Assembly (NCBI GenBank): GCA_032433765.1
Contig: JAVIAB010000092.1
Location: 100,056,886 to 100,120,885 of the forward strand
Length of the DNA stretch: 64,000 bases
From: Megaustenia siamemsis
Lineage: Eukaryota; Mollusca; Gastropoda; Stylommatophora; Ariophantidae
Direction of reading: 5' to 3'
Shown piece after piece: positions 1 to 62,560 of the stretch (its first letter is position 1; the number at the start of each line of letters is the position of its first letter). Under the pieces are notes generated by a model that saw nothing but the letters and a program-made list of their open reading frames with translations, did not search any database and was not told where the DNA came from. Position numbers and translations under genes: made by a program.

Positions 1-459
1 AATGACATTCTCTTCATCGAACTCGAAGAGATTCTGCCATTGTTGTGTGTTCACCTTCCCATTACAGGCATACACATTAACAATCACGAAATGAACTGGG
101 GTCTGCACCCTAACCGCATGTACCTGCAATTCTGCATTGTTCCACACAGACATATCAACCTCAGCTGCCATCATATTGTTGCGCACAAGGATGGCCCGCC
201 CTAGGTGTCGTCTATTGTAAAAGCAATGAAAGCCAGGAGTACTTACTGTCCTGTCACCAAGAAGAGTTTCTTGCAAAACCATTATATCGGCGCCGCACAG
301 TAGCTTATCAAGAATGGGCCGTCGTTGATTAATGGACCCACAATTCCAATAAGTAACGCGCACATACTTTAGGCCTAGCCTCTCACACTTTGATAGTTTA
401 GTGCCACCCCTCTTGCCCCGTCGTGTTTTCCTTCTTCGATGATGTAGTTTGGGCTGCAT
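1..459 (-). CDS. Non-LTR retrotransposon endonuclease (APE type), cut by window edge
   Basis: The minus strand is open for 153 codons from an ATG at 459 and runs off the left edge, so this is the N-terminus of a larger protein. It starts with a basic leader (residues 1-32), then shows apurinic-endonuclease-like motifs: WNCGSIN (38-44), the metal-binding glutamate in LQET (62-65) and VNVYA (127-131). In LINEs this domain nicks target DNA to prime reverse transcription. The frame stays open upstream of the ATG to a stop at 529-531, so the start is uncertain. Sequence upstream to about 700 may be the 5' UTR. The RT lies outside the window, so the clade cannot be set. No internal stop is seen. 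Confidence 0.75.
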   Translation of the reverse strand, partial: MQPKLHHRRRKTRRGKRGGTKLSKCERLGLKYVRVTYWNCGSINQRRPILDKLLCGADIMVLQETLLGDRTVSTPGFHCFYNRRHLGRAILVRNNMMAAEVDMSVWNNAELQVHAVRVQTPVHFVIVNVYACNGKVNTQQWQNLFEFDEENVI

Positions 460-529
460 CTGAAAACTTACACTTCTTACCGTCGTCTTTAAAGATGAAC
501 GTCGCTGAACGTTGTTGCTTTGGATGGCC

Positions 530-917
530 TAGACTCACGTGCACTTGCTCAGTCGCACGGCCTAGAACCCGTTCCACGATATAAACTGGCCAGCTCCAGT
601 AACTTGCTCAGCAGCACGCGGAAACACTGTGAGCTTTCTACAAATTAAATGACTTACGCGTCCTTGACGACAGACCGGCGTAAACAAACCGCCATTTTTT
701 GACGCGTTCAATAGCGTAACAACAATAATAAGTGATGAAAGAAGGAAATTATAACAAAATGCAATGAATCAAAAGAAGCAAAGTGATTAACATCAAATAG
801 AAAGCGCGCACACTCACATGAACCCTCAAAAAATAAATAAAAACAAACAAATAAACAGGAAATTTCACTGGAAAACAGCACTTATCTGTGAATCTTATGA
901 ATAGGCCAGCCAACAAA
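530..917. other. Gap: possible LINE 5' leader, no gene seen
   Basis: The first 170 bases lie directly upstream of the minus-strand endonuclease frame and are GC-richer than the A/T-rich remainder, as expected of a LINE 5' UTR. I see no ORF or RNA gene here. Confidence 0.3.
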
Positions 918-1325
918 ATTTGTTTTGATGTTAGTATGTTCTTCATGGCATTAAAATTACTTGTTGCCATTCCTATTCTTTTGTTTATTTCAGTTGTACA
1001 TTTTCCATCAATGGTTATAGTATGTCCAAGGTAGTTGTAGCTCTGAACTGTCTCCAGGTCTATTCCTTCAATTTTCATATCCACTTGTGGGTTTTGAGTT
1101 TTTCCTTTGTTTATGATCATAGTTTTAGTCTTTTTGATATTCATATCTAGTCCATATGTTTTTGCTTATCATGTTTATTTCATTAAGTAATTATTGTAGA
1201 TCTTTAGGATTTTCTGCTAGTAGTACAGTATCTTCAACATATCTTAGGTTATTGATTATCTTTCCATTAATTTGTAGACCTGGCATCTCTATGACAGCAT
1301 TTTCACCAATGCTGTTTGGAATTAT
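918..1325 (-). pseudogene. RTE-like reverse transcriptase fragment, broken
   Basis: Read on the minus strand, this matches the better copy at 9092-10150 nearly base for base: the catalytic-box region, then MNIKKTKTMIINK and YNYLGHTIT. The YADD catalytic box reads YVED here, a stop interrupts the segment after LAENPKDLQ, and there is a frame change before MNIKKTK. The similarity ends near 918. It is a dead fragment lacking both the N-terminal palm and the C-terminal domain. Confidence 0.8.
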
Positions 1326-1394
1326 CACTGAATACAACATGAATAAATGTTTTCAAATTCATTAAAGTGTGATAAATGACACGATAAGAAATAC

Positions 1395-1600
1395 CTGGTG
1401 GATCTAGGTTTTACATATCATATAGTGCTTATAAGTGACAATATCAACAAGATGCAAAATATCCAGATACCCTATTATCATAAAAAGAAAAGAATAGGAT
1501 TTGAAATCAACAGAGATAAAACAAAAATAATGAAAGATAACACAGATATTTACAAATATACACAGAGTTTTCTTCTTAGACATTTGTATTCAGAAGTGTT
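1395..1600 (+). pseudogene. Possible RT fragment of a second LINE family
   Basis: The translation holds HIVLISDNINKMQ followed by GFEINRDKTKIMK. These resemble the catalytic-box helix and the following K-x-K segment of LINE reverse transcriptases, with the FADD-type box itself damaged. It is about 70 codons long with no start context. I judge it a decayed fragment. Confidence 0.4.
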
Positions 1601-1959
1601 TAGTTTTCTCTAAGTCTCTTTTGCTGTTTTCCAACTTTCACATGCGTAGGTAAGTATTGATAATTCATCTGAGTTGAATATTCTCAGTTTAGTTTTCTAG
1701 CTCTTATATTTTAAAATAACAATACCCCAGAGAGAAGTATATATAAGCATAGACTCATGAGCTAATATCGAACATCTCCATAAAAATAGAGATGGATGTG
1801 GGAAAACACCACAAGCCCTATGCGTCGTCTAACGGCGCGGGAAGGATCAAGTGACCATTTTTTACCTGACCTTTTAAACTGTTATCTAACTACCAATGCA
1901 TCTTTCATGTTTGCAGAGCGAACATATGACTTGCCCTGCTTGTTACTGTTTTATTTGAG

Positions 1960-2105
1960 AGGGCTACACCTTGGAGACCATGGGAGGGTAAAGCCACGAA
2001 GGAACCATGGAATCAAAGAGAAAATGTCCCATCTATGATTGAACCTGCGTCTTTCTTGTACAGAGGCCAATGTCTTACCTCTAGGCCACCCATTCCCTAG
2101 ACAAG
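1960..2105 (-). repeat. tRNA-derived SINE head-like sequence
   Basis: On the minus strand the sequence has a Pol III A box (TGGCCTAGAGG) and, about 45 bases later, a B box (GGTTCAATCAT), the layout of a tRNA-headed SINE. The 3' boundary (toward 1920) and target duplication are not clear. Confidence 0.5.
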
Positions 2106-2133
2106 CCTCTAGGCCACCCATTCCCTAGACAAG
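2078..2133. repeat. 28-bp perfect direct duplication
   Basis: The 28 bases at 2078-2105 recur exactly at 2106-2133. The unit covers the 5' end of the tRNA-like SINE head, including its A-box side, so it arose after that insertion. Confidence 0.9.
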
Positions 2134-2380
2134 TTCACACACTACTGCTCTAACGTGCTTCCTGAGAATATGAAAAGAAACATTTCAAAAGCTTGTAGAT
2201 GTGTTCACTTATCCAAAATTTGGGAGCTGCATGATTTCTATTGTGCATCAAGTATTTCGCATTACCAACTATTTGACCATGTATTGTCTGTCTCTGACTA
2301 TGGTCTTCATTTGCATATTTATGAAAGATATGGTCAGCAACACGTTGGGTCTCCTCTCGTTACAGTTCATTATTTCATTC

Positions 2381-2460
2381 AGACAACACAAGTCCAATTA
2401 ATTGGTAATGTAATGTTTATTTTTACATTGAGACAACACAAGTCCAATTAATTGGTAATG
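2381..2460. repeat. 50-bp-spaced direct duplication
   Basis: A 30-base segment at 2381-2410 recurs at 2431-2460, a tandem duplication with a 50-bp period. Two short ORFs overlapping it are not supported as genes. Confidence 0.85.
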
Positions 2461-2615
2461 TTTATGAAAGAAAGCATGCCCATACCCAGTATTGTTGATC
2501 ATTTCACAGTAAACAGAGACCGCAGTTCTGGCACCGTCAGGCTGTATGTGGTACACAGAGCTCACTTTGAAGCCAGCCAGGTAGATATCATGGCAATCTA
2601 CAAAAATAAGTTCAT

Positions 2616-2950
2616 GGTAAAGGTAAAGGTAAAGTACGAGACTTGAACCGGCGTCTTAGCACGCGAGTATATACCCATATGTGCTCGGCCGCCTATCCAG
2701 AAATGTTCGGATATTTCTGTATAGTGTAGCCTCAAGCATCGAAACTCAGATGCGAAGCGACATTCCTCACCTTCCCAGGATAATATACCCTGGTACCCAT
2801 TTCTGCCAACGGCTGGGTCGACCGTGGGGGTATTTTTTTTTTTCAACCACGAGTACAATTCACACTGCTCCCAGCGGGAATTGAACACGGGTTGTCCGAA
2901 CGTCGGTAATCTAGTCGGGTGGTTTTCCCAACTAGGCTACCGAGGCCCCC
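2616..2950 (-). repeat. tRNA-headed SINE (family B, TTTACC tail)
   Basis: The minus strand starts with a tRNA-like head (GGGGGCCTCGGTAGCC, A box TAGCCTAGTTGG, B box near GTGTTCAATTCCC). An approximately 180-bp body follows and it ends in short TTTACC repeats, which read as GGTAAA on the plus strand at 2616-2634. The same body occurs at 28256-28459 and 58009-58499. This is the full-length copy; I see no clear target duplication. Confidence 0.85.
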
Positions 2951-3289
2951 AACAGTGATTGGTATCACTGAAAAATTATTGACATTAAAGCTAATTAATG
3001 ATATCACAAAAGAATTAGAAATTAGACCTTACTCTAGAGAATGAATCATGAACTTCTTTCTGGGGCAGCAAATATAACGATTTGTGTGGGTGGAGAGAAT
3101 TATTTATCAACCATCAGAGAGTCTTTTTGCTCGACGTACCATACAAGTTTTATTCATAAAGAGGGGCCACAGAAATATTCCAGACCCTGAGTAAATTGGT
3201 GTGATAATTAAGGCAGGAATTAGTACAGAAGTGAAACGTCATCATAACACAGAGAATTAGAAAGGCAACGGTGGAATTTGTATTACACA

Positions 3290-4475
3290 TTTATAGTTAA
3301 GATGTGAATCAGGGACTAGTTCTCGCACCAATCGAGTATGCCCTGGCAATTCTTACTGTCGGTAAGGTGCAAATTGACAGGCTGAAGAAAATATAGAATG
3401 AAGCGATGCGCATTATCTTGGGGTGTACGTAGGACACTTCCTGTGTAGCAATGAGGTATCTTCTTGACTTTCCAACCATGGATGACAGAATCAAGATATG
3501 GAGGGCACGAGTATACCTGAAGATAAGTGCAGATAAAGATCATCCATTGCACTACGTGCTCAACTCCGGGAAAGGTGTCAGCTAAAAAGAGGCAAATTCT
3601 GCAAGACCGAGCAGAAGATGTCATCAAACAGGTCTGTGGGCTTATCAATATCAACCCTGACGAGAAATGGATACCGGTGCCTACGTCATTCAGAGGAACA
3701 TTCTCGTGTATTGTCACACTCGACAGGAAATGTAGGGAACAGAACACAGTGGTGGTCAATGCGGAGGTCAACGGTCTTATCTGGGATAACAACGAGAGAA
3801 AGGTGCAGTTATCTATACAGACGGATCTGTAATACGATACCAAAAGAGTGCATGTGTATTTACAGCATGCTCGACAGGCAGAATAGTCAAGGAATACAGT
3901 GGTACATACGTCATGACCACGAGTAGCATGACGATGGAAGTGATGTCAGTGACCAGGGCTTTCATCTGGTTAGTCACAAGACTACACCCACGCCTGCATA
4001 ATGAGTGAATCAATGAGTTTGATTTTTTTTTAAAGTGGAGGCGGGCTCTGTATGCGTGCAATGGTAAGAGTCAGTGCAGAAGTCAAAAGTACGAAAGGTC
4101 ACCTTTGTCTACGTCCTAGGACATGTGTGAGTACGGGGAAATGAAAGAGCGGACAGGCTGGCTAGCTGCGCTATTGTTGCGGACGGTCGGTCAACCAATG
4201 GATCGGGCGGACATCATCAATGCCCTCCGAGGTGTTGGAAAAGCACAGGACTTCGACAACCATGAGTCCACGTCACTCCTTCGGATGAAAGAGATGGGAG
4301 AAGATGGGCACAGCCAGAAATGAGAAACTTAGTGGCCGTGTAAGAAAACTTAACAACTAACACAGAACTGGAGTCGTCAGTCGCTGAACACTGCTGGACT
4401 TGCTGAGGAGGGGATCTGAGCACCTATGGATATGTTCGGAATGCAATGATGATGACCCACAAATAACTCATTGTG
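3290..4475 (+). pseudogene. RNase H-bearing LINE, 3' half, decayed
   Basis: Across changing frames, this encodes the RT C-terminal region (IQNEAMRIILGC; MDDRIKIWRARVYLK), an RNase H start (IYTDGSV near 3815) with a following MTTSSMTMEVM block, and the C-terminal segment RADIINALRGVGKAQDFDNH through a cysteine-containing end at CSECNDDDPQIT (about 4432-4465). Several stops and frameshifts break it. Fragments of the same 3' end occur at 10895-11265 (minus) and 26645-26860 (plus). RNase H points to an I/Jockey-like lineage; this is inference from domain content. Confidence 0.75.
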
Positions 4476-5110
4476 AATCAGAAATATACAAACCTGCTAA
4501 TAAAAGTTTAAAAATTGAACATGGCCATAAGAGTGAGAAAAATAACAAGTGCAAAGTGTAGCAAAATGAAAAAAAAAAACTGATTTGAGAATGAGGCAGA
4601 GAAAGAAAATACCAAACAGCTTTAAATGTTTAATGAAAGAGAGAACAACATAAATGGTTGATGAACATTAGAAGCAGGAGTTAATTAAGGAGTAAAAGTA
4701 AAGTAAAATCATAGATGCTTGTTCTATCACAAAATGGCAGTTTAGACAAGACCGTGGACATTTCATAGCGTTTTTGATTGTCCTAAATCTACAACACTCC
4801 CCTCAAACTTAAAATTTGTATTTTATGGGAGGTTTTAATTCCTGACATTGGTAAAAAAAAAAAAAAAAAAAGAATTTTCAAGTTTGAAAATGTTTTTGAT
4901 GCCAGTGATAGGAAAGTTTGTGAGAAGAAACATTCCAGGACTGACTAGTTGGACACTTGCAGCGTGAAATATTCAACTGTACACCACAAATGTTAATAAA
5001 ATATTAAACTATAGTTTCTTTAATCAACTTTAGTGACTACCCATCTCGTTTTATTCCCTTAAAGTTGAAGACAGAAAATGAGGCAGAAATTATAGACTTT
5101 ACTACTAAAT
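4476..5110. other. Gap: A/T-rich, no gene seen
   Basis: A/T-rich sequence with a poly-A run at 4853-4871. No ORF, RNA gene or clear repeat was recognised. Confidence 0.5.
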
Positions 5111-5124
5111 ATCATATTTTGGTG

Positions 5125-5388
5125 GGAGCCGCGATAGCTCAGTGGTTAGTGAACTGGACTACAAAGGACAAGAGATAGGGTTCGATCCAAACCGACGTCT
5201 TTCGGTTCACCCAGCCTTTAACGGGTATCGAATTTGTTTCTGGGAAAGTAAAGCGGCACGGGCGTAATACCGACCATATTACTCCAAAAATCATGTGCCG
5301 AATCTCTGTAAAATTTATGGTCACTAACACCATATTCCCTATACGCAACTTGGCGTGACGGGGGTACTTAACTTTTTTTCTTTTTTTA
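5125..5388 (+). repeat. tRNA-headed SINE (family A), 14-bp target duplication
   Basis: The head starts GGAGCCGCGATAGCTCAGTG with A box TAGCTCAGTGG and B box GGTTCGATCC. The body includes the cacatgatttttgg-type block in reverse orientation, and the element ends in a T-rich tail. The flanks carry a perfect 14-bp duplication, atcatattttggtg, at 5111-5124 and 5389-5402. This proves a complete retroposition event and fixes both ends. Other copies are at 18903-19157, 31888-32099, 50145-50402 and 57578-57839. Confidence 0.92.
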
Positions 5389-5459
5389 ATCATATTTTGG
5401 TGAGGAACCGTATTCTATCTCGCCATACATCTCTGTTCAGGATTAATCTTTCTATGACT

Positions 5460-6880
5460 TGGAACAATTAGATAGACAGAGCAAGGAAAAAAGCCAGAAA
5501 ACGAACAAATATTATGAAGAAATTGGTAGGAAAGGACTGGGATCAGACAGCAATATTTTGAAAAGACTATACGTAGGAAGAGTCAGACCCGTTCTAGAGT
5601 ATGGAGTCACAGCCTGAGCTATGGCTTCCAAATCACTCCTGAGAAAAATTAACAGAACCAATCTGTCCGTATCATCAATGGTGTTATGAAATCTACACCT
5701 ATCAAGACTCTAGAAACAGTAACAGGTTTACAACCCTTAGATGACAGACGGGTCACTAAAGTATTGCAACAAGAGGAGAAATATAGAAGGCTCCTTAGCC
5801 ACCCCATGCACCAAAGAATAACTGGTTCCGGAATTGTACGACTAAAGAGGAGCAACTTCGCTGCAATTGCCAATGAACTAATTACTAGAGACCCAGTACT
5901 TTCCCAAACAATATCGAAACCCTTGGGCCCATCTGATATGTCTCCTCATTGAAAACATAAAATACCAGAACCTAAGGAAAATATAACAGGAATCATGAAA
6001 AAAGGCACCCAATCAGACACAGAAAGAAAACACGTAGCAGAAAAAGCACATACACGATACCTACCCACAGGACTCTTGGTCCCACATATACACAGATGGC
6101 TCTGCTACAAATGCCACCAAAAATGGAGGAGGTGGAGGTGTGCTCTTGACGCTGAATAATCAGGACGAGATCACCAAGTCAATAGCTAGTGGAAAATTCT
6201 CAAACAACTTTAAAGCAGAAACTGAGTGCTGCAACACTGGCTACTCAACACAAAAATAACATGCACAATAAATTGGTGATTCTGACTGATGCACTGTCAG
6301 TACTATCAGCTCTAAAAATCCCCGAGAACAATGAACTAGATGACTTGAGAACAACCGTGGACCAACTATGCAATAACTTCCAGAGAGTAGTCGTTCAGTG
6401 GATACCATCACACTGTAATATACACGGGAACGAACGCGCAGACAAATTAGCTAAAGAGGGAGGGAGATTACCACAAGAGAACCATCAGCTCAGTTATGAT
6501 GAAGCCAAATCCATCCTCAAATGTTAGTTCCATGAAAAATGGAAACGAGGACACCCAAAGCATAACGAGAGTAACGGATACCACCAACTATCAAGGAGGG
6601 ATCAAGTCATCATACTTCACCTACGCACTGGCCACAATAGAATGAGAAATCACATGTTCACCAAATTCAAAATAGGTACAACCAGCCTATGCCACTGTAC
6701 ACTGGACAACATGACTACAAAACATGTTCTACAGGACTGCCTCCAGTACACAGACCTGAGAAGAGCAATGTGGTCTACACCCACCTCCTTGGAAGAGAAA
6801 CTATATGGGACAATCGATTCGCTTAAACAGACAGCTGACTTCATGAGAGAGTCTGGAATCCTACTCTGATTGAGTCTTGA
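5460..6880 (+). pseudogene. LINE 3' part with RNase H, interrupted
   Basis: Segments in several frames give RLYVGRVRPVLEYG (RT C-terminal region, about 5565-5605), an RNase H domain starting IYTDGSATNATKNGGGGG (6087 onward), its middle (VILTDALSVLSALK) and its end (VVQWIPSHCNIHGNERADKL, about 6390-6450). A final Cys/His cluster is CHCTLDNMTTKHVLQDC (about 6690-6742). Stops and frameshifts separate the pieces. The last 260 bp recur at 13046-13308. RNase H degrades the RNA strand during cDNA synthesis. This family differs from the LINE at 3290-4475. Confidence 0.8.
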
Positions 6881-6924
6881 TCGCAGATATACATATATAG
6901 TATAGACTTATATATATATCGGTA

Positions 6925-7265
6925 AGAGAGCTGGTGCCTGCTGTTGTTACTTCTAATCTCAGTATTATTTTTAGTGCTTCTCTAGGTCGGCATCTTTCGC
7001 TTTTATCATCTGATTTGAGGGCATGTTTTGAGATTTCATTGATCTTATTGTCTCTTCTTATTTCATGACCATCATTTGACCACTTCCAAATTCTTGGCTA
7101 TAGACGTTATTATTGGATACTTTGTCATTTCTCTTATTGCTGCACTAGTCTTGAATTCATTCCGTGGCATACAAAGTATTTTCCTGAGGCATTTGTTTTC
7201 AAAAGCAACTAATTGATTTTCTATTTCATGTATCACAGATGAATCATAAACAAGTTATATTTCTA
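6925..7265 (-). pseudogene. RT C-terminal fragment (third LINE family)
   Basis: The minus strand reads ENQLVAFENKCLRKILCMPR, then NEFKTSAAIREMTKYPIITS, then after a frame break a segment like a LINE thumb/C-terminal domain. This pattern (FExxCLRxIL...) is typical of RTE-type elements. It is broken by stops and has no start. The plus strand shows no plausible gene. Confidence 0.55.
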
Positions 7266-7379
7266 ACGAGAGCAAATGAGATAGACAACTAAAATATCAG
7301 CTACAATGACAATTTTTGTTTGCTTTTAAAAAGGTGGCATACAAACAAATTATCATCATTATCATGTACCATACCGGTT

Positions 7380-7765
7380 GGCGTAGGCGATCATGTCCTT
7401 CCACAATCTTCTATCTACGGTGCATCGTATCAGTTCTGTTGTTGACTGTTTGCCATGCCATGACACCAAGCCATCTAGTATTTTCTTTCTTTGTCACCCG
7501 CGATCTCTCTTTCCTTGTATTTTGCCAGTTGTAACCAAGTATTCAAAATTTCCTCTTCTCATGATGTGCTCGAAAAATGTTGATTGTTTCTTTCTCATGT
7601 TTTTTATGAGCTCCATTTTTGTGTTGGCCTCTTTGGGAATTTCCTCATTGGTCTTTTTAGCTGTCCAGTGAAATATCAACATTCTTCTAAGAAATCCCAT
7701 CTCTGTGGCCTCACATAAACAAATAGCTATTTTTTTTAAATATTTTATATTTAACATCAAATTGT
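7380..7765 (-). pseudogene. RTE-like RT C-terminal fragment (family 2)
   Basis: The minus-strand frame at 7494-7760 encodes a C-terminal RT segment: EATEMGFLRRMLIFHWTAKK, FFEHIMRRGNFEYLVTTGKI and GKRDRG, then continues in another frame to about 7380, ending in ATGATAATGATGAT. The same family is on the plus strand at 32575-33010, including its 3' motif gcctacgcca. The fragment is 5' truncated and frameshifted. Confidence 0.7.
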
Positions 7766-7888: not shown

Positions 7889-44197
<36,309 letters not shown>

Positions 44198-44509
44198 CTG
44201 CAACAACCGACCACTTCACTGTCCGTGCGTTCTCTTTTGAACGGGAAAGTACCGTTTCAATCATCTCTCTCTTGCCCTGTCGTTTTAATAAAAATGTCAA
44301 ATTTTGTCCGGTTTTTAATAAGAAACTATAAATATACGCTAATACTGGCCAGTTATAAATTATAGCTTATCATCGTTATCAATACCATAGATACCAGTAG
44401 TTTGGGTTTGTATCAAAATGATGTCAGGGAGTGTGAGACGTTTGATGAAGGACCGACATTTGCAGAGTAAGATTAACGCACAAGGAGGGACAGTCATACC
44501 AAGATGTTA

Positions 44510-45056
44510 CATAATCTACCAGATACAATTTGGGAGAGGGAAGAAATACCTAAAGACTAGAAAGAAGTTTATATGATAAAACTACCAAAGAAAGGAAGTT
44601 TACAGGAGTGCACAAATTATAGGGGAATTATGCTACTATCAGTGCCAGGAAAAATATTAAGCAGAATAATTCTGGAGAGACTAAAAGAGGCTATAGAGAA
44701 AAATTTGAGAGATGAACAAGCAGGTTTTAGGAAGAACAGATCATGTGCTGATCTAATAACTACCCTCCGTATAATAGTTGAACAAAGTTTAGAACTACAG
44801 TCCCCACTTTATATTGAATTCATAGATTACGAAAAGGCATTTGATAGTTTAGACAGAGGAATGCTTTAGAAGTTGCTGATTCATTACGGAATCCCCACAA
44901 AGTTTATTAAACTGATAAGAACAATGTATGAAGGAATGAAATGTAGTGTGGTGCATGAAGGGCAGCTTACAGAAGCATTTGAAATAAGAACAGGAGTAAG
45001 GCAGGGATTCCTTCAAGAAACAACGGATTGGAAAGTGTTTGATGAAGACATATGCT
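44510..45056 (+). pseudogene. RTE-like RT N-terminal half, interrupted by the palindromic element
   Basis: Encodes IKLPKKGSLQECTNYRGIML, SVPGKILSRIILERLKEAIE, DEQAGFRKNRSCADLITTLR and the palm aspartate region YIEFIDYEKAFDSLDR. After a stop at GML come LLIHYGIPTKFIKLIRTMYE and IRTGVRQG, where similarity breaks off before the catalytic box. The giant element inserted at 45057 with a TATGCT duplication; reading continues past 53218 only in low-complexity DNA. The N-terminal RT fingers and palm are otherwise well preserved. Confidence 0.85.
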
Positions 45057-45359
45057 AGTAGTATACAATGTTGTATTTGGATCGAATTGTGGCGTAAATT
45101 AACAAAGCTATATAGTGTGGTGCGCAGGGCACCACATGTACACGAGAATCAAGGGGAGTTAATCGTGACACTTCGTGTCCGGATGTCGACCTCTGGTCCC
45201 GGTGACCCCGGAAGTGACCTGTTTATGTCTGGTGTATGCTGACTTTGGAGCTCTTGGTGTACTTGCTCGATAGTGATAGGTTAGTAGATTATACAACATC
45301 AATGAAAAACAATCAATATAAAACAGAAGACAAAGATATATTTTATTCTTTTATTAGCT

Positions 45360-45560
45360 CAATAGGTGTATAACATTACAAACATATTTAGTATACGAAG
45401 TAAATATATAGTAGAAGGATAATATTTATTTATAGCTATGTAGTTGGGTGTCTGCTTAGCGTTGTACCATAAATGAAGCATAAGGGGTGAAACAGTTAGA
45501 GATTCTCGGTTAGTCTAAGCTGGTAGTGTAAATATGTTCCTCGGTGTTAGTGGTTCGCTA

Positions 45561-45592
<32 letters not shown>

Positions 45593-45862
45593 TCTACTAT
45601 TTCAGCCTAGATTTCCCTCCATTGAAACACTTACTCATTCTCTCCATTTATCCCTATCATCGCGCCTTCCTTCTCTCTCTCTCTTTCTCCCCTATCCTCT
45701 CTTAGACTTCTAACCTATCAGTCCACCCTCCACCTCTCCGTTTAGCTCCCCCGCCCTCCCTCATATTTTTAGCGTCCCTCCTATTGTAACACTTGATTAT
45801 TCTCACCATTTATACCTAGCATCTCGCCTTCCTTCTCCTAGACTTCTCAGTATTTCTCTCTT

Positions 45863-45910
<48 letters not shown>
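45360..45910. repeat. CT-rich microsatellite zone of the left arm
   Basis: (CT)n runs at about 45560-45593 and 45862-45909 pair with (GA)n runs at 52665-52710 and 52377-52400 in the right arm; lengths differ between arms. Confidence 0.85.
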
Positions 45911-45912
<2 letters not shown>

Positions 45913-46174
45913 AACCCCTACTAGACTTCTTTCCTACCATTCGTACTTTATGCACATCACCATATTAATACAACCGAAATGCCTTTAATGATAACCTACC
46001 ACATCGTTATGAGATAAGAGAAAAACAGAAAAAATTCAACTTACACCGTAAAATATACCACTACAACACAGACCGCTAGACTGAACAGTACTATGAAATA
46101 AACGTCCGTGAATCAAGCGCGCTTATAACACGAAGTCTCACATCCGACTAGTTTAAATATAATCTGGTAAAAAA

Positions 46175-46655
46175 GTTAGCAGACAAGGGCAGAAACCTAG
46201 GAGGCAAGGGCAGAAACCTAGGAGGCAAGGTCAGAAACCTAAGAGGCAAGGACAGAAACCTAGGAGGCAAGGGCAGAAACCAAGGAGGGAAGGGTAGAAA
46301 CGTAAGAGGCAAGGGCAGAAACCAAGGAGGGAAGGTCAGAAACCTAGGAGGCAAGGTCAGAAACCTAGGAGGCAAGGTCAGAAACCTAGGAGGCAAGGTC
46401 AGAAACCTAGGAGGCAAGGGCAGAAACCAAGGAGGCAAGGGTACAAACCTAAGAGGCAAGGGCAGAAACCAAGGAGGGAAGGTCAGAAACCTAGGAGGCA
46501 AGGTCAGAAACCTAGGAGGCAAGGTCAGAAACCTAAGAGGCAAGGGCAGAAACCTAAGAGGCAAAGACAGAAACCTAGGAGGCAAGGGCAGAAACCAAGG
46601 AGGCAAGGGTAGAAACCTAAGAGGCAAGGGCAGAAACCAAGGAGGGAAGGTCAGA
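46175..46655. repeat. 21-bp minisatellite, left arm array 1
   Basis: About 23 units of aggcaaggg(t)cagaaaccta with g. Because 21 is a multiple of three the minus strand is open and reads as a repeated LPPRFLP heptapeptide (171 codons). It is the mirror image of 51410-52110. Confidence 0.93.
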
Positions 46656-47096
46656 AAGGACACACCATTAATACAACTGAAATTCCTTTAATGATAACCT
46701 ATCACATCGTTATGGGATAAGAGAAAAACAGAAGAAAAAAAAAATTCAACTTACACCGTAAAATATTCCACTACAACACAGACCGCTAGACTGAACAGTA
46801 CTATGAAAATAAACTTCCGTGAATCGAGCGCGCTTATAACACGAAGTCTCACATCCGACTAGTTTAAATATAATCTGGTAAATAAAGTTTGACGACACTA
46901 TTCCACCCTCGACTAACATCTAGGTTAACCAATCAGAGAGAGGATTTCTATCGGACACCCACCAACGAAATGACTGACCTCGGGATTAACTAATCAGAGA
47001 AAAAGATTACTGTTATCGTGATAACTGACCTCATTTTCAACTTGGAGTGCTGTCGAGTCTGACGCGTGGGTTACTTTAAATCGAGTCGGCCCTGAT

Positions 47097-47395
47097 ACCA
47101 GAAACCTAAGAGGCAAGGGCAGAAACCTAAGAGGCAAAGACAGAAACCTAGGAGGCAAGGTCAGAAACCTAGGAGGCAAGGGCAGAAACCTAGGAGGCAA
47201 GGGCAGAAACCTAAGAGGCAAGGGCAGAAACCTAAGAGGCAAGGGCAGAAACCTAGGAGGCAAGGTCAGAAACCTAGGAGGCAAGGGCAGAAACCTAGGA
47301 GGCAAGGGCAGAAACCTAGGAAGCAAAGGCTGAAAACAAGGAGAGAAGTCAGAAATCTAGGAAGCTGTGTTAGAAAACAAGGAGGGAAGGTCAGA
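47097..47395. repeat. 21-bp minisatellite, left arm array 2
   Basis: About 12 units, the same repeat as array 1, mirrored by 50640-50955. A minus-strand ORF through it (46994-47326) is an artefact. Confidence 0.92.
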
Positions 47396-48204
47396 AAGGA
47401 CACACCATTAATACAACTGAAATTCCTTTAATGATAACCTATCACATCGTTATGGGATAAGAGAAAAACAGAAGAAAAAAAAATTCAACTTACACCATAA
47501 AATATTCCACTACAACACAGACCTCTAGACTGACAGTACTATGAAAATAAACTTCCGTGAATCAAGCGCGCTTATAACACGAAGTCTCACATCCGACTAG
47601 TTTAAATATAATCTGGTAAATAAAGTTGGACGACACTATTCCACCCTCGACTAACATCTAGGTTAACCAATCAGAGAGAGGATTTCTATCGGACACCCAC
47701 CAACGAAATGACTGGATTCTGGATTAACTAATCAGAGAAGAGGATTACTGTTATCGTGATAATTGACCTCATTTTCCACTTGAAGTGCTGTCGAGTCTGA
47801 CGCGTGGGTTACTTTAAATCGAGTCGGCCCTGATACAATATACCTAGCGGGTCAATGGTGGGAGGAATAATACAAGTGACGGGTTACTTGAACGCGTTTT
47901 GACCCCTGATCCAATACCAGGAGTTCCATGACAGTCATAAATAGTTGGATACAACGAGCAGGAAGTTATATTCAAGGTCCAAAAAGAGTGACCAAATCAC
48001 TAACATTTTACCTCCAGAACACAACAATTTAGGCTCATACTAAAAAGTCGACCTAAAAATCCCAAAAAAAGCTACTCACATAGTCATAATAGTTAGACAC
48101 AACGAGTAGAAAGTTATATTCAAGGTCCAAAAACCTTATTTTAGACATCCCCATAGCAAAAAGGTACTTATAACTCACTTTCGAAATTGTTACCCCCTTA
48201 CTAT

Positions 48205-49090
48205 TTTTAGGGATACGCCCATAAAATCGGTAAAAATCGTAAATTTTCACTCTAGGCATACCCCTAACTTTATTTTAGACATCCCCATTGCAAAAATTTA
48301 CATAAAAAACCACTTTTAGGATTTTACCCCCTTAGCATTTTTGAGGGTTACGCCCATGAAATCGGTAAAAATCGTAAATTTTCACGCTAGGCATACTCCC
48401 AAACTTTATTTTAGACATCCCCATTGCAAAAATTTACATAATAAACCACTTTTAGGATTTTACCCCATTAGCATTTTTGACGGTTACGCCCATAAAATCG
48501 GTAAAAATCGTAAATTTTCACGCTAGGCATACCCCCAAACTTTATTTTAGACTTCCCCATTGCAAATATTTACATAAAAAACCACTTTTAGGATTTTACC
48601 CCCTTAGCATTTTTGAGGGTTACGCCCATAAAATCGGTAAAAATCGTAAATTTTCACGCTAGGCATACCCCCAAACTTTATTTTAGACATCCCCATTGCA
48701 AAAATTTACATAAAAAACCACTTTTAGGATTTTACCCCCTTAGCATTTTTGAGGGTTACGCCCATAAAATCGGTAAAAATCGTAATTTTCACGCTAGGCA
48801 TACCCCCAAACTTTATTTTAGACATCCCCATTGCAAAAATTTACATAAAAAAACACTTTTAGGATTTTACCCCCTTAGCATTTTTGAGGGTTACGCCCCT
48901 GAAATCGATAAAAATCGTAAATTTAGCACGTAGGCTTACTTAAAACTTTATTTTAGACATCCCAATACCAAAAATTTACTAAAAAATCACTTTTGAAATT
49001 GTAACCCCCCCCTTACCATTTTTTGAGGGTTACGCCCCTGAAATCGATAAAAAATTGAAATATAACCTCAAGGCATACCTCCCACATAAT
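48205..49090. repeat. 136-bp tandem repeat near the palindrome centre
   Basis: Units recur with starts (gggttacgccc) at about 48211, 48346, 48482, 48618, 48753, 48889 and 49027. Each has atcggtaaaaatcgtaaatt and actttattttagacatcccc. The right arm has only two such units (about 49293 and 49429). The three 61-codon ORFs are the same unit read at successive positions and are not genes. Confidence 0.93.
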
Positions 49091-49217
49091 ATTTGACACC
49101 CCTACATATCAAATTCCAACAAAAAAACAACAAAAAGCTAGTAGTAGGTGTGGCGGTGACATACTACTTCTCGTGCAGTTTTGGCACCAATACTGTACGA
49201 TACAGTGATTTTTAAGT
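48975..49217. other. Unpaired centre of the palindrome
   Basis: About 240 bp between the arms, holding one more diverged 136-bp unit and a unique piece (ctagtagtaggtgtggcggt; tactgtacgatacagtga with a small internal palindrome). Confidence 0.75.
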
Positions 49218-50144
49218 AAATTTTTGGTAGGGATGTCTAAAATAAAGTTTTAAGTAAGCCTACGTGCTAATTTACGATTTTTACCGATTTCAGGGGCGTA
49301 ACCCTCAAAAATGCTAGGGGGGTAAAATCCTAAAAGTGGTTTTTTATGTAAATTTTTGCAATGGGGATGTCTAAAATAAAGTTAGGGGGTATGCCTAGAG
49401 TGAAAATTTACGATTTTTACCGATTTTATGGGCGTATCCCTAAAAATAGTAAGGGGGTAACAATTTCGAAAGTGAGTTATAAGTACCTTTTTGCTATGGG
49501 GATGTCTAAAATAACGTTTTTTGGACCTTGAATATAACTTTCTACTCGTTGTGTCTAACTATTATGACTTTGTGAGTAGCTTTTTTTGGGATTTTTTAGG
49601 TCGACTTTTTTAGTATGAGCCTAAATTGTTGTGTTCTGGAGGTAAAATGTTAGTGATTTGGTCACTCTTTTTGGACCTTGAATATAACTTCCTGCTCGTT
49701 GTATCCAACTATTTATGACTGTCATGGAACTCCTGGTATTGGATTGGGGGTCAAAACGCGTTCAAGTAACCTGTCACTTGTATTATTTCCTCCCACCATT
49801 GACTCGCTAGGTGGATTGTATCAGGGCCGACTCGATTTAAAGTAACCCACGCGTCAGACTCGACAGCACTTCAAGTGGAAAATGAGGTCAATTATCACGA
49901 TAACAGTAATCCTCTTCTCTGATTAGTTAATCCAGAATCCAGTCATTTCGTTGGTGGGTGTCCGATAGAAATCCTCTCTCTGATTGGTTAACCTAGATGT
50001 TAGTCGAGGGTGGAATAGTGTCGTCCAACTTTATTTACCAGATTATATTTAAACTAGTCGGATGTGAGACTTCGTGTTATAAGCGCGCTTGATTCACGGA
50101 AGTTTATTTTCATAGTACTGTTCAGTCTAGCGGTCTGTGTTGTA

Positions 50145-50511
50145 AGTAAAAGTAAAGTACCCCCCGTCACGCCAAGTGGCGTATAGGGAAATATGGTGTT
50201 AGTGACCCTATATTTTACAGACCTTCAGCACATGATTTTTGGGGTAATGTGGTCGGTATTACGCCCGTGCTGCTTTTACTTTCCCAGAAAAAATCCGGTA
50301 CCCATTTAAGGCTGGGTGAACCCGGAGCCGTCGGTTGGGATCGAACCCTACCCCTTGTCCGTAGTAGTCCAGTTCACTAACCACTGAGCTATCGCGGCTC
50401 CTACTAATTTTTAGGGAATTAGTAAAACCCAGGTGTCCTCGCCAGGATTACGAACCCCGGCTGTTGCCGTGGTAAGCCAACCGCCTATCGATTGCGCTAA
50501 CCGGACACCCT
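50145..50511 (-). repeat. Composite two-head SINE with 13-bp target duplication
   Basis: One insertion, flanked by ggtctgtgttgta at 50132-50144 and 50512-50524, holds two tRNA-like modules on the minus strand. The 5' module (50511 to about 50425) has A box ttagcgcaatcgatagg and B box gggttcgtaatcc; a 25-base A/T linker then joins a full family A SINE (50402-50145). A single duplication around both shows they moved as one unit. It is absent from the left arm. Confidence 0.85.
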
Positions 50512-50639
50512 GGTCTGTGTTGTAGTGGAATATTTTACGGTGTAAGTTGATTTTTTTTTCTTCTGTTTTTCTCTTATCTCATAACGATGTGATAGGTTAT
50601 CATTAAAGGAATTTCAGTTGTATTAATGGTGTGTCCTTT

Positions 50640-50955
50640 CTGACCTTCCCTCCTTGTTTTCTAACACAGCTTCCTAGATTTCTGACCTTCCCTCCTTGTT
50701 TTCAGCCTTTGCTTCCTAGGTTTCTGCCCTTGCCTCCTAGGTTTCTGCCCTTGCCTCCTAGGTTTCTGACCTTGCCTCCTAGGTTTCTGTCTTTGCCTCT
50801 TAGGTTTCTGCCCTTGCCTCTTAGGTTTCTGCCCTTGCCTCTTAGGTTTCTGCCCTTGCCTCCTAGGTTTCTGCCCTTGCCTCCTAGGTTTCTGACCTTG
50901 CCTCCTAGGTTTCTGTCTTTGCCTCTTAGGTTTCTGCCCTTGCCTCTTAGGTTTC
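50640..50955. repeat. 21-bp minisatellite, right arm array 1
   Basis: Inverted counterpart of 47097-47395; the plus strand reads LPPRFLP repeats (ORF 50631-51062), ending where unique arm sequence resumes. Confidence 0.92.
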
Positions 50956-51409
50956 TGGTATCAGGGCCGACTCGATTTAAAGTAACCCACGCGTCAGACT
51001 CGACAGCACTCCAAGTTGAAAATGAGGTCAGTTATCACGATAACAGTAATCTTTTTCTCTGATTAGTTAATCCCGAAGTCAGTCATTTCGTTGGTGGGTG
51101 TCCGATAGAAATCCTCTCTCTGATTGGTTAACCTAGATGTTAGTCGAGGGTGGAATAGTGTCGTCCAACTTTATTTACCAGATTATATTTAAACTAGTCG
51201 GATGTGAGACTTCGTGTTATAAGCGCGCTCGATTCACGGAAGTTTATTTTCATAGTACTGTTCAGTCTAGCGGTCTGTGTTGTAGTGGAATATTTTACGG
51301 TGTAAGTTGAATTTTTTTTTCTTCTGTTTTTCTCTTATCCCATAACGATGTGATAGGTTATCATTAAAGGAATTTCAGTTGTATTAATGGTGTGTCCTTT
51401 CTGACCTTC

Positions 51410-52110
51410 CCTCCTTGGTTTCTGCCCTTGCCTCTTAGGTTTCTACCCTTGCCTCCTTGGTTTCTGTCTTTGCCTCTTAGGTTTCTGCCCTTGCCTCTTA
51501 GGTTTCTGACCTTGCCTCCTAGGTTTCTGCCCTTGCCTCCTAGTTTCTGACCTTGCCTCCTAGGTTTCTGCCCTTGCCTCCTAGGTTTCTGACCTTGCCT
51601 CCTAGGTTTCTGTCTTTGCCTCTTAGGTTTCTGCCCTTGCCTCTTAGGTTTGTACCCTTGCCTCCTTGGTTTCTGCCCTTGCCTCCTAGGTTTCTGACCT
51701 TGCCTCCTAGGTTTCTGACCTTGCCTCCTAGGTTTCTGACCTTGCCTCCTAGGTTTCTGACCTTCCCTCCTTGGTTTCTGCCCTTGCCTCCTAGGTTTCT
51801 GACCTTCCCTCCTTGGTTTCTGCCCTTGCCTCTTAGGTTTGTACCCTTGCCTCCTTGGTTTCTGCTCTTGCCTCCTAGGTTTCTGACCTTGCCTCCTAGG
51901 TTTCTGACCTTGCCTCCTAGGTTTCTGACCTTGCCTCCTAGGTTTCTGACCTTCCCTCCTTGGTTTCTGCCCTTGCCTCTTACGTTTCTACCCTTGCCTC
52001 CTTGGTTTCTGCCCTTGCCTCCTAGGTTTCTGTCCTTGCCTCTTAGGTTTCTGTCCTTGCCTCCTAGGTTTCTGCCTTGCCTCCTAGGTTTCTGCCCTTG
52101 TCTCCTAACT
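51410..52110. repeat. 21-bp minisatellite, right arm array 2
   Basis: About 33 units, versus about 23 in the mirrored left array 46175-46655. The 206-codon plus-strand ORF (51553-52173) is a repeat artefact. Confidence 0.92.
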
Positions 52111-52374
52111 TTTTTTTACCAGATTATATTTAAACTAGTCGGATGTGAGACTTCGTGTTATAAGCGCGCTTGATTCACGGACGTTTATTTTCATAGTACT
52201 GTTCAGTCTAGCGGTCTGTGTTGTAGTGGTATATTTTACGGTGTAAGTTGAATTTTTTCTGTTTTTCTCTATCTCATAACGATGTGGTAGGTTATCATTA
52301 AAGGCATTTCGGTTGTATTAATGGTGATGTGTATAAAGTACGAATGGTAGGAAAGAAGTCTAGTAGGGGTTAGA

Positions 52375-52409
<35 letters not shown>

Positions 52410-52739
52410 TACAGAGAAGTCTAGGAAAGGAAGTCGAGATGCTAGGTATAAATGGTGAGAATAATCAAGTGTTACAATAGGAGGGACGCTAAAAATATGA
52501 GGGAGGGCGAGGGAGCTAAACGGAGAGGTGGAGGTTTGACTGATAGGTTAGAAGTCTAAGAGAGGATAGGGGAGAAAGAGAGAGAGAGAAGGAAGGCGCG
52601 ATGATAGGGATAAATGGAGAGAATGAGTAAGTGTTTCAATGGAGGGAAATCTAGGCTGAAATAGTAGAGAGAGAGAGAGAGAGAGAGAGAGGGCGAGAGA
52701 GAGAGAGAGATAGCGAACCACTAACACCGAGGAACATAT

Positions 52740-53000
52740 TTACACTACCAGCTTGGACTAACCGAGAATCTCTAACTGTTTCACCCCTTATGCTTCATTT
52801 ATGGTACAACGCTAAGCAGACACCCAACTACATAGCTATAAATAAATATTATCCTTGTACTATATATTTACTTCGTGTACTAAATATGTTTGTAATGTTA
52901 TACACCTATTGAGCTAATAAAGAATAAAATATATCTTTGTCTTCTGTTTTATATTGATTGTTTTTCATTGATGTTGTATAATCTACTAACCTATCACTAT
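52740..53000. repeat. Polinton-like terminal segment (right end)
   Basis: This stretch and its mirror at 45280-45540 align with 17314-17605, downstream of the broken PolB. Shared blocks include gctaagcagacacccaacta and ttttcattgatgttgtataa. Confidence 0.75.
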
Positions 53001-53289
53001 CGAGCAAGTACACCAAGAGCTCCAAAGTCAGCATACACCAGACATAAACAGGCCACTTCCGGGGTCACTGGGACCAGAGGTCGACATCCGGACACGAAGT
53101 GTCACGATTAACTCCCCTTGATTCTCGTGTACATGTGGTGCGCCGCGCACCACACTATATAGCTTTGTTAATTTACGCCACAATTCGATCAAATACAACA
53201 TTGTATACTACTTATGCTCCACAGGGAGCTGAAAGGTAGAAGGGACAGTCATAGGATCGTGGTGAAATACCCTCCTCGCTCTAGGTCAT

Positions 53290-57577: not shown

Positions 57578-57839
57578 TAAAAGTAAGTAGTAAAGTACCT
57601 CCGTCACGCCAAGTGGCGTATAGGGAATATGGTGTTAGTGACCATAAATTTTACAGACCTTCGGCACATGATTTTTGGGGTAATGTGGTCGGTATTACGC
57701 CCGTGCCGCTTTACTTTCCCAGAAAAAAATCTGGCACCCATTAAAGGCTGGGTGAACCGGAAGTCGTCGGTTGGGATCGAACCCAACCTCTTGCCTTTTG
57801 TAGTCCAGTTCACTAACTACTGAGCTTTCGCGGTTCCCT
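57578..57839 (-). repeat. Family A SINE with 14-bp target duplication
   Basis: A full-length minus-strand copy; perfect duplications atgtcacatacaag at 57564-57577 and 57840-57853. The head has two changes in the A box (tagctcagtagt on the minus strand). Confidence 0.92.
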
Positions 57840-60609: not shown

Positions 60610-62560
60610 CTTGGTTATCTCTATTCAAGTTCCTTGTGAACCCTTCTATCTCCACTCAAGTCCCATGTGAACCCTTCTATCTCTACTCAAGTCCCGTGTG
60701 AACCCTTCTACCTTCACTCAAGTCCCGTGTGAACCCTTCTACCTCCACTCAAGTCCCGTGTGAACCCTTCTACCTTCACTCAAGTCCCGTGTGAACCCTT
60801 CTATCTCTACTCAAGTCCGTGTGAACCCTTCTACCTTCACTCAAGTCCAGTGTGAACCCTTCTATCTCTACTCAAGTCCCGTGTGAACCCTTCTACCTTC
60901 ACTCAAGTCCCGTGTGAACCCTTCTACCTTCACTCAAGTCCCGTGTGAACCCTTCTACCTCCACTCAAGTCCCGTGTGAACCCTTCTACCTTCACTCAAG
61001 TCCCGTGTGAACCCTTCTATCTCTACTCAAGTCCGTGTGAACCCTTCTACCTTCACTCAAGTCCCGTGAGAACCCTTCTATCTCTACTCAAGTCCGTGTG
61101 AACCCTTCTACCTCCACTCAAGTCCAGTGTGAACCCTTCTACCTCCACTCAAGTCCGTGTGAACCCTTCTACCTTCATTCAAGTCCAGTGTGAACCCTTC
61201 TACCTCCACTCAAGTCCAGTGTGAACCCTTCTACCTCCACTCAAGTCCAGTGTGAACCCTTCTACCTCCACTCAAGTCCAGTGTGAACCCTTCTACCTCC
61301 ACTCAAGTCCAGTGTGAACCCTTCTACCTCCACTCAAGTCCAGTGTGAACCCTTCTACCTCCACTCAAGTCCAGTGTGAACGCTTTTACCTCCACTCAAG
61401 TCCAGTGTGAACCCTTCTACCTCCACTCAAGTCCAGTGTGAACGCTTTTACTTCCACTCAAGTCCAGTGTGAACCCTTCTACCTCCACTCAAGTCCAGTG
61501 TGAACCCTTTTACCTCCACTCAAGTCCAGTGTGAACCCTTCTACCTCCACTCAAGTCCAGTGTGAACCCTTTTACCTCCACTCAAGTCCAGTGTGAACCC
61601 TTCTACCTCCACTCAAGTCCAGTGTGAACCCTTTTACCTCCACTCAAGTCCAGTGTGAACCCTTTTACCTCCACTCAAGTCCAGTGTGAACCCTTCTACC
61701 TCCACTCAAGTCCAGTGTGAACCCTTCTACCTCCACTCAAGTCCAGTGTGAACCCTTCTACCTCCACTCAAGTCCAGTGTGAACCCTTCTACCTCCACTC
61801 AAGTCCAGTGTGAACGCTTTTACCTCCACTCAAGTCCAGTGTGAACCCTTCTACCTTCACTCAAGTCCAGTGTGAACGCTTTTACCTCCACTCAAGTCCA
61901 GTGTGAACCCTTCTACCTCCACTCAAGTCCAGTGTGAACCCTTTTACCTCCACTCAAGTCCAGTGTGAACCCTTCTACCTCCACTCAAGTCCAGTGTGAA
62001 CCCTTTTACCTCCACTCAAGTCCAGTGTGAACCCTTCTACCTCCACTCAAGTCCAGTGTGAACCCTTTTACCTCCACTCAAGTCCAGTGTGAACCCTTTT
62101 ACCTCCACTCAAGTCCAGTGTGAACCCTTTTACCTCCACTCAAGTCCAGTGTGAACCCTTTTACCTCCACTCAAGTCCAGTGTGAACCCTTTTACCTCCA
62201 CTCAAGTCCAGTGTGAACCCTTCTACCTCCACTCAAGTCCAGTGTGAACCCTTTTACCTCCACTCAAGTCCAGTGTGAACCCTTTTACCTCCACTCAAGT
62301 CCAGTGTGAACCCTTTTACCTCCACTCAAGTCCAGTGTGAACCCTTTTACCTCCACTCAAGTCCAGTGTGAACCCTTTTACCTCCACTCAAGTCCAGTGT
62401 GAACCCTTTTACCTCCACTCAAGTCCAGTGTGAACCCTTCTACCGCCACTCAAGTCCAGTGTGAACCCTTCTACCTCCACTCAAATCCAGTGTGAACCCT
62501 TCTACCTCCACTCAAGACCAGTGTGAACGCTTTTACCTCCACTCAAGTCCAGTGACTTAT
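60610..62560. repeat. 31-bp minisatellite, about 63 units
   Basis: Units contain cctccactcaagtccagtgt followed by gaacccttcta. Variant types are zoned: cccgtgtg units occur to about 61080, ccagtgtg units after that, and ttttacc units dominate from 61500 to 62420. Confidence 0.97.

Follow-up and report, generated by a model that had tools for sequence, protein, structure and literature searches.

What kind of element is it that consists almost wholly of its own inverted repeats, carries no gene, and ends like a self-synthesising transposon? The question is raised by a palindrome in the genome of the gastropod Megaustenia siamemsis, lying in a stretch of 64,000 nucleotides (here called the window; contig JAVIAB010000092.1, C91:100056886-100120885) that we analysed together with the rest of the assembly (2.59 Gb in 155 contigs). 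The palindrome is probably a non-autonomous derivative of a Polinton, or Maverick, in which the polymerase-side end and a repeat-rich tail of about 4 kb occur twice, mirrored around a short centre, and which is moved by a Polinton integrase. Its ends, its 6-bp duplication, the homology of its end to a polymerase-side Polinton terminus and the presence of relatives of the same build at independent sites are all demonstrated below. Because the genes that define Polintons are absent from it, we file the element as Polinton-derived and not as a Polinton proper.

An 8-kb palindrome inserted in a retroelement

The element starts with AGTAGTATACAATG and finishes with CATTGTATACTACT (coordinates of this and other features are collected in Table 1). 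The initial annotation of the window had placed its AG...CT termini and the TATGCT on both flanks at exactly these positions, and had called it a near-perfect palindrome. That description fits insofar as inverted repeats cover 94.3% of the element (matches of at least 60 bp and at least 75% identity, array-to-array cross-matches counted too), but it passes over several differences between the arms. When these are aligned, 3,353 of 3,471 columns are identical; outside the minisatellites there are 37 mismatches in 2,497 columns (1.48%, blocks tallied), and divergence varies by block from 0.38% to 3.9%. Furthermore, the arrays differ by indels of 230 and 21 bp, the central 136-bp arrays are unequal, and a short interspersed element (SINE) is found in the right arm only, leaving an alignment gap of 380 bp, its duplication included. 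The terminal 38-base pattern of the element had no match in 100 shuffles and, as shown below, the architecture recurs in relatives; the palindromic structure is thus beyond chance. Neither a polymerase match (tblastn) nor a capsid or protease gene was found within the palindrome, where the listed open reading frames (ORFs) are all repeat-derived.

The SINE copy in the right arm occupies 50145-50511. Four further copies lie in the window, at 57581-57837, 5119-5376, 18913-19159 and 31896-32102 (84-90% identical to the arm copy), and duplications flanking several copies are visible by eye in the printed flanks. The likeness of the SINE to a tRNA is by eye only, since neither Rfam (at the gathering threshold) nor ARAGORN had any hit in the window.

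The target of the insertion had been described as a reverse-transcriptase (RT) gene fragment, and it is indeed an internally deleted copy of an RT retroelement. Two uninterrupted paralogues of the site were found: at locus L026 the left flank matches 8300-8344 and the right flank 8339-8368, and at L030 the matches are 5309-5264 and 5269-5241. As the flanks overlap by exactly 6 bp in both paralogues, TATGCT is a true insertion scar.

Table 1. Features of the palindrome, of its target and of a second element in the window (window coordinates; TSD, target-site duplication; TRF, Tandem Repeats Finder)
Feature	Position	Strand	Remarks
Palindromic element, whole	45057..53212	.	8,156 bp; defined by ends, duplications and 94.3% inverted-repeat coverage
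TSD left, TATGCT	45051..45056	+	also supported by empty-site paralogues
TSD right, TATGCT	53213..53218	+	also supported by empty-site paralogues
Arm, left	45057..49102	+	inverted matches extend to element position 4046
Arm, right	49204..53212	-	inverted matches start at element position 4148
End motif left, (AGT)2	45057..45062	+	AGTAGT; motif as given in PMC8097293
End motif right, (ACT)2	53207..53212	+	ACTACT; motif as given in PMC8097293
Outer 476 bases	45057..45532	+	homologous to polymerase-side Polinton terminus; 73.6% over 552 bp to L048 890-342
21-bp minisatellite, outer array, left arm	46177..46657	+	TRF
21-bp minisatellite, inner array, left arm	47099..47397	+	TRF
Tandem array, 136-bp unit, left arm	48131..49053	+	TRF
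Centre, 101 bp	49103..49203	.	homologous to centres of other members; part deleted in window copy
Inner AGTAGTA..TACTACT pair	49140..49168	+	in centre
Tandem array, 135-bp unit, right arm	49204..49518	-	TRF
SINE with 13-bp duplication GGTCTGTGTTGTA	50132..50524	-	right arm only; strand and tRNA likeness by eye
21-bp minisatellite, inner array, right arm	50637..50957	-	TRF
21-bp minisatellite, outer array, right arm	51398..52107	-	TRF
RT fragment of target retroelement	44492..45013	+	88% over 174 aa to 704-aa ORF of L026
Second Polinton-type element, decayed	11492..17917	.	its right end shared with palindrome; TSD AACGGA at 11486-11491 and 17918-17923
Broken polymerase pieces, second element	16713..17109	+	66-85% to L043, in order; 56% over 80 aa to L017 piece

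Evidence that the palindrome moves as a unit

The initial annotation had proposed a genome search with the terminal 500 bp, and a search with the 500 bases of the left end found other palindromic copies sharing these ends. Among 4,358 first-look candidates, 40 hits were scored, which we read as 15 pairs in opposite orientation (that of the window included) and 10 singles. With L027, whose right end has diverged, the pairs make a set of 16 two-ended elements. The singles L024, L025, L026 and L028 and the element L023 were also looked at; none of the first four showed a second end within about 19 kb. Four singles lie outside this sample (C73:49371713, C73:49436202, C103:29309576 and C91:108856446).

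The two-ended elements are 3.9-8.6 kb long, and 15 of the 16 have the terminal sequences AGTAGTAT/ATACTACT, the remaining one, L012, having AGTAGTGG/CCACTACT. Thirteen are flanked by a perfect 6-bp duplication, each of a different sequence; in L011 and L017 the duplication has one mismatch. Inverted repeats make up at least 80% of the length in 12 of the 16, and 71% in L017. In L018 the layout reads outer domain, 21-bp array, 148-bp array, 136-bp array, centre, and then the mirror image; BLAST finds the modules of its arm in other elements, in varying number and order. Six two-ended members are young (L016, L018, L019, L021, L022 and L027), with ends 0-0.8% from the nearest young copy, and five of them (all except L022) carry perfect and mutually different duplications. 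That near-identical copies carry different duplications is the strongest sign of the palindrome being moved as a whole. The proposal of a non-autonomous foldback element mobilised as a whole is therefore upheld by the 13 perfect, different duplications and the 12 largely palindromic members.

The end of the palindrome is homologous to a Polinton terminus

The motif (AGT)2//(ACT)2 is the commonest end motif of vertebrate Mavericks, of which those that are intact measure 12.7-24.6 kb, with terminal repeats of 46-1,447 bp and duplications of 6 bp, according to the part of PMC8097293 on which we draw. With about 4 kb, the arms in the window go beyond that vertebrate range of terminal repeats. The Polinton-type ends named in the initial annotation nevertheless have support beyond this motif and the duplication, as the outer end of the palindrome shows homology with a terminus that adjoins a PF03175 polymerase gene elsewhere in the genome. 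This terminus, ..CATACTATACTACT, lies in L048, downstream of the polymerase of L043, and the alignment extends to its last base. L043 matches PF03175 in two separate ORFs, one at 31.4 bits (cut-off 25.8) and the other, which holds the DTDS motif, at a sub-threshold 23.2 bits.

A second, decayed element in the window links the same sequences. It has the ends AGTAGTAG..ATACTACT and a perfect 6-bp duplication, and its two ends have no longer inverted repeat in common. The subterminal sequence of the palindrome matches 17317-17605 at 78%, and its tip matches 17845-17917 more weakly (70% over 77 columns, E 0.001), while window positions 17001-17600 align to L048 619-39 at 86.7% over 603 columns. 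Inside the right end of this second element are broken open pieces resembling a family B polymerase, three of which match L043 in order; a further piece, 17149-17313, gave no protein match, and its DNA falls inside the L048 alignment. Judged by sequence, the end of the palindrome is a Polinton end.

Searches farther afield added little. A 40-residue polymerase piece used as query had no homologue, scans of viral contigs with the terminal sequence of the palindrome and a scan with a polymerase-motif DNA pattern gave nothing, and the PDB and phage searches returned no informative match. Two polymerase pieces used in scans hit 12 and 48 stretches, and no relative was confirmed among these.

Could the likeness to Polinton ends be due to chance instead, the element being a Foldback of the classical type from a different superfamily (Mutator-like, P/Galileo-like, IS3EU or GingerRoot)? 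In the portions of PMC3573991 and PMC4079207 consulted, such elements typically have inverted arms that are long, rich in repeats and devoid of genes, but the duplications there are 7 bp (Galileo) or 8-10 bp (Tetris) as against 6 bp here. IS3EU and GingerRoot are eukaryotic groups with 6-bp duplications, but they end in TA..TA or TG..CA by the account excerpted from PMC10045372, as against AG..CT in the window. Given also that the end is homologous to the terminus adjoining a PF03175 gene, we consider this origin highly improbable. Duplications other than 6 bp, or ends belonging to an unrelated transposase family, had been named beforehand as signs against a Polinton; neither was found, L022 standing as one unexplained exception.

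Gene-bearing relatives

The initial annotation had described an element with no genes. This holds for the copy in the window but not for all of its relatives, as polymerase fragments sit in both arms of L011 and of L017. The L017 piece matches, at E 8e-11, a PF03175-positive frame of 1,025 aa at L036, and is 59% identical over 138 aa to L043. The L036 frame (544-3618, + strand, 1,025 codons, PF03175 polymerase) has an Endonuclease_7 match upstream (24.3 bits, cut-off 23.6).

Another relative with open frames is L023, an element at 16-7760 of its locus with the duplication AACGGG and a terminal repeat of 76 bp. Its left 3.7 kb or so consist of arm modules, followed by three open frames of 236, 472 and 187 codons. 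No polymerase match was found in it, and no search aimed at an integrase was made. Out of 8,000 scored, 1,120 homologues of the 472-codon frame reach E <= 0.001; among the 120 listed, those with an organism name come from gastropods (Pomacea, Littorina, Elysia, Nucella). The predicted structure of one homologue, P0028 (predicted local distance difference test score, pLDDT, 84.7), matches the major capsid proteins of Sputnik (3j26, E 1.5e-15) and mavirus (6g44, E 2.8e-14). By this model, the frame matches a major capsid protein of the virophage/giant-virus type. The 187-codon frame looks, by eye, like an adenain-type protease; its best PDB match, the cysteine protease S273R, is weak (E 0.11). 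Both the capsid and the protease ORF had matches in L023 only. Finally, a 51-bp exact inverted repeat with a 45-nt spacer lies at the inner edge of the L023 arm and could be either the seed or the remnant of a palindrome.

Compared with the window element, L012 and L023 have the arm in common from about element base 38 inwards. Their outermost 0.33 kb or so differs from the window element, yet has the same AGTAGT start, and by this terminal segments seem to have been exchanged between lineages. Near the lone palindrome end at L024 there is an uninterrupted frame of 881 codons (4413-7055, - strand), which has leucine-rich as well as LDL-receptor class A repeats and may be a receptor gene without introns.

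A seemingly old centre between arms that resemble each other

Among the matches listed, the centres of L018 and L019 match those of L013, L015, L016 and L027 at 94-98%, and the centre of the window copy in pieces of 53-91 bp at 78-90%. The homology of the centres thus spans lineages, which makes the junction of the palindrome look like an old, inherited one. The inner AGTAGTA..TACTACT pair, which was noticed before testing, arose in 1 of 20,000 shuffles of the spacer and in 2 of 300 shuffles of the element. We rejected it as a speciality of the window copy; the centre is common to the relatives.

A related motif, A(4-6)[AG]CT|AGTAGT, is present in 15 of the 16 two-ended elements (not in L017), near the middle in 13 and on both sides in nine. 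It is what might be expected if the palindrome were composite, that is, if a small central element with its own (AGT)2//(ACT)2 ends had been joined, by insertion or end joining, to two inverted Polinton-end segments around it, and the whole later amplified as a unit. By eye, the sequence after the motif in L011, L012 and L020 also resembles the outer end of L012 and L023. The flanks of the inner motif, however, are inverted (AAAGCT / AGCTTT) with no 6-bp direct duplication, and a composite origin alone does not explain why the outer ends of one element pair with each other, as described next. We therefore regard it as unlikely.

If the arms had evolved independently since that old junction, divergence within elements should be at least as great as divergence between them. 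The outer 500 bases show the reverse: the closest sequence is the element's own other end in 11 of 15 elements, with two ties and two cases in which another copy is closer. The outer ends of the window element are 1.6% from each other as against 7.7% from another copy. In the older lineages, the outer ends of an element resemble each other more than they resemble any other sampled copy.

Several observations weigh against a Polinton-derived palindrome, or against arms renewed within each element. Neither the second end of the L043/L048 element nor, as a consequence, its duplication was found, and Pfam did not recognise the polymerase pieces in the window and in L011 and L017 on their own. The hits were picked for likeness to the end in the window, so that the fractions given here describe near relatives and not the whole family. 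Three of the 16 elements are mostly non-palindromic (L009 28%, L014 21%, L020 47%). The pairing of outer ends is missed by one base in L016 and L018, and L012 is 2.2-2.6% from L023 as against 3.0% between its own ends. The second module pairs weakly: the own counterpart is closest in 4 of 11 cases, three are ties, and in four another copy is closer by one base. From the pairing of outer ends, the weak second module and the case of L012 and L023 together, we conclude that outer ends are homogenised within elements and that modules have apparently been exchanged among lineages.

Among these contrary observations is also L022, which has inverted flanks and lacks a duplication. Its flanks (1-300 and 6963-7262) are inverted copies of a 42-bp tandem repeat, the palindrome running past the element; L022 may be an assembly fold-back or part of a larger inverted duplication. 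Such flanks are the expected product of an assembly error in which a single arm is read twice, mirrored. To such an artefact as the source of the window palindrome we give next to no credence: there the flanks differ and the 6-bp duplication is confirmed by empty-site paralogues, the arms are 1.5% apart, one arm holds a SINE bounded by a separate duplication, and relatives built in the same way carry different duplications.

How the arms may be renewed

For the Polinton-derived palindrome we propose the following course of events. The integrase of Polintons resident in this genome would recognise its ends and insert the whole palindrome in trans; it is the ends and the duplication that lead us to infer this trans-mobilisation. 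Single-stranded DNA is exposed when protein-primed replication proceeds by strand displacement. The long single strand exposed in this way could fold back at the central inverted repeat, after which one arm would be copied into the other, and the arms would thus be made or renewed. Each new insertion would start with nearly identical arms, and drift by point mutation, array change, deletion and insertion would follow. That the arms are made or renewed by such fold-back copying at the centre seems to us only just short of an even chance. A little more tentatively, we picture the element as a self-renewing palindrome: a Polinton-derived parasite with one type of end present twice, in which one arm is rebuilt from the other in each replication cycle by fold-back at the conserved centre, so that two matching, integrase-recognised ends would be assured without any gene. 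The separate steps have parallels in the sections of two papers used here. In yeast, inverted repeats within long single strands fold back and give rise to inverted duplications (PMC10164571), and the formation of a 21-kb palindrome in Tetrahymena requires inverted M-repeats on either side of a spacer that is not palindromic (PMC5182062).

The main rival, and a serious one, keeps the same origin and mobilisation but ascribes the lasting likeness of the arms to gene conversion between them after insertion, of the kind that acts in the palindromes of sex chromosomes. A homologous centre implies an old junction, and yet the arms are alike; the uneven block divergence of the arms in the window (given above) likewise fits patchy conversion. 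On the other hand, the window element has kept its one-armed SINE and its array differences unconverted, and whole outer ends would need converting in many independent copies. We see gene conversion as possible, if on the doubtful side; the present data do not separate it from fold-back copying.

Other features of the window

Two long transposase frames are present, one of 456 aa with DDE_3 (20578-21948, - strand) and one of 647 aa with DDE_1 and a sub-threshold Tc5-type helix-turn-helix (23526-25469, + strand). TRF also reports two large minisatellites, at 29031-31864 (13-bp unit, 217 copies) and at 60635-62554 (31-bp unit, 62 copies). A frame of 158 codons at 40289-40765 (- strand) matches the PC4 domain below threshold (22.5 bits against a cut-off of 25).

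Comparison with known systems

A search of the open-access literature, with Repbase and Dfam outside its scope, found no description of non-autonomous, foldback or palindromic Polintons. The foldback architecture itself is known from Galileo and Tetris; the novelty lies in a family of this design that derives from a Polinton end. With Polintons and Mavericks, so far as the excerpts of PMC8097293 and PMC6431247 describe them, the element has in common the (AGT)2//(ACT)2 ends, where (AG)3//(CT)3 would also have qualified, the 6-bp duplication and the homologous polymerase-side terminus. It differs in that the vertebrate ones bear genes, while here repeats of about 4 kb make up nearly the whole element and there is no gene. 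Galileo and Tetris resemble it in their long inverted repeats, internal tandem arrays of variable length, non-coding copies and extension of the terminal inverted repeats; unlike it, they have duplications of 7 or 8-10 bp, P- or Mutator-type ends, and longest repeats of 1.26 and 1.74 kb (from the same parts of PMC3573991 and PMC4079207). The palindromic ribosomal DNA of Tetrahymena is likewise a large palindrome around short inverted repeats with a non-palindromic spacer, but it is programmed and extrachromosomal and involves no transposon (PMC5182062, in the section cited above).

Polintons are regarded as viruses and transposons alike, and their DNA copying in animals is poorly known. Giant palindromes made of one end, with a homologous centre and outer ends that are alike within each copy, provide a genomic record from which the replication intermediate might be worked out. 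They also show that a foldback lifestyle can arise from a self-synthesising transposon, by which the chromosome gains dispersed inverted repeats of 4-9 kb. A protein-primed replicon is known to yield comparable molecules in the incomplete genomes of adenovirus, in which the left end is duplicated. Like the palindromes described here, these have two copies of one end; unlike them, they are neither integrated nor inherited.

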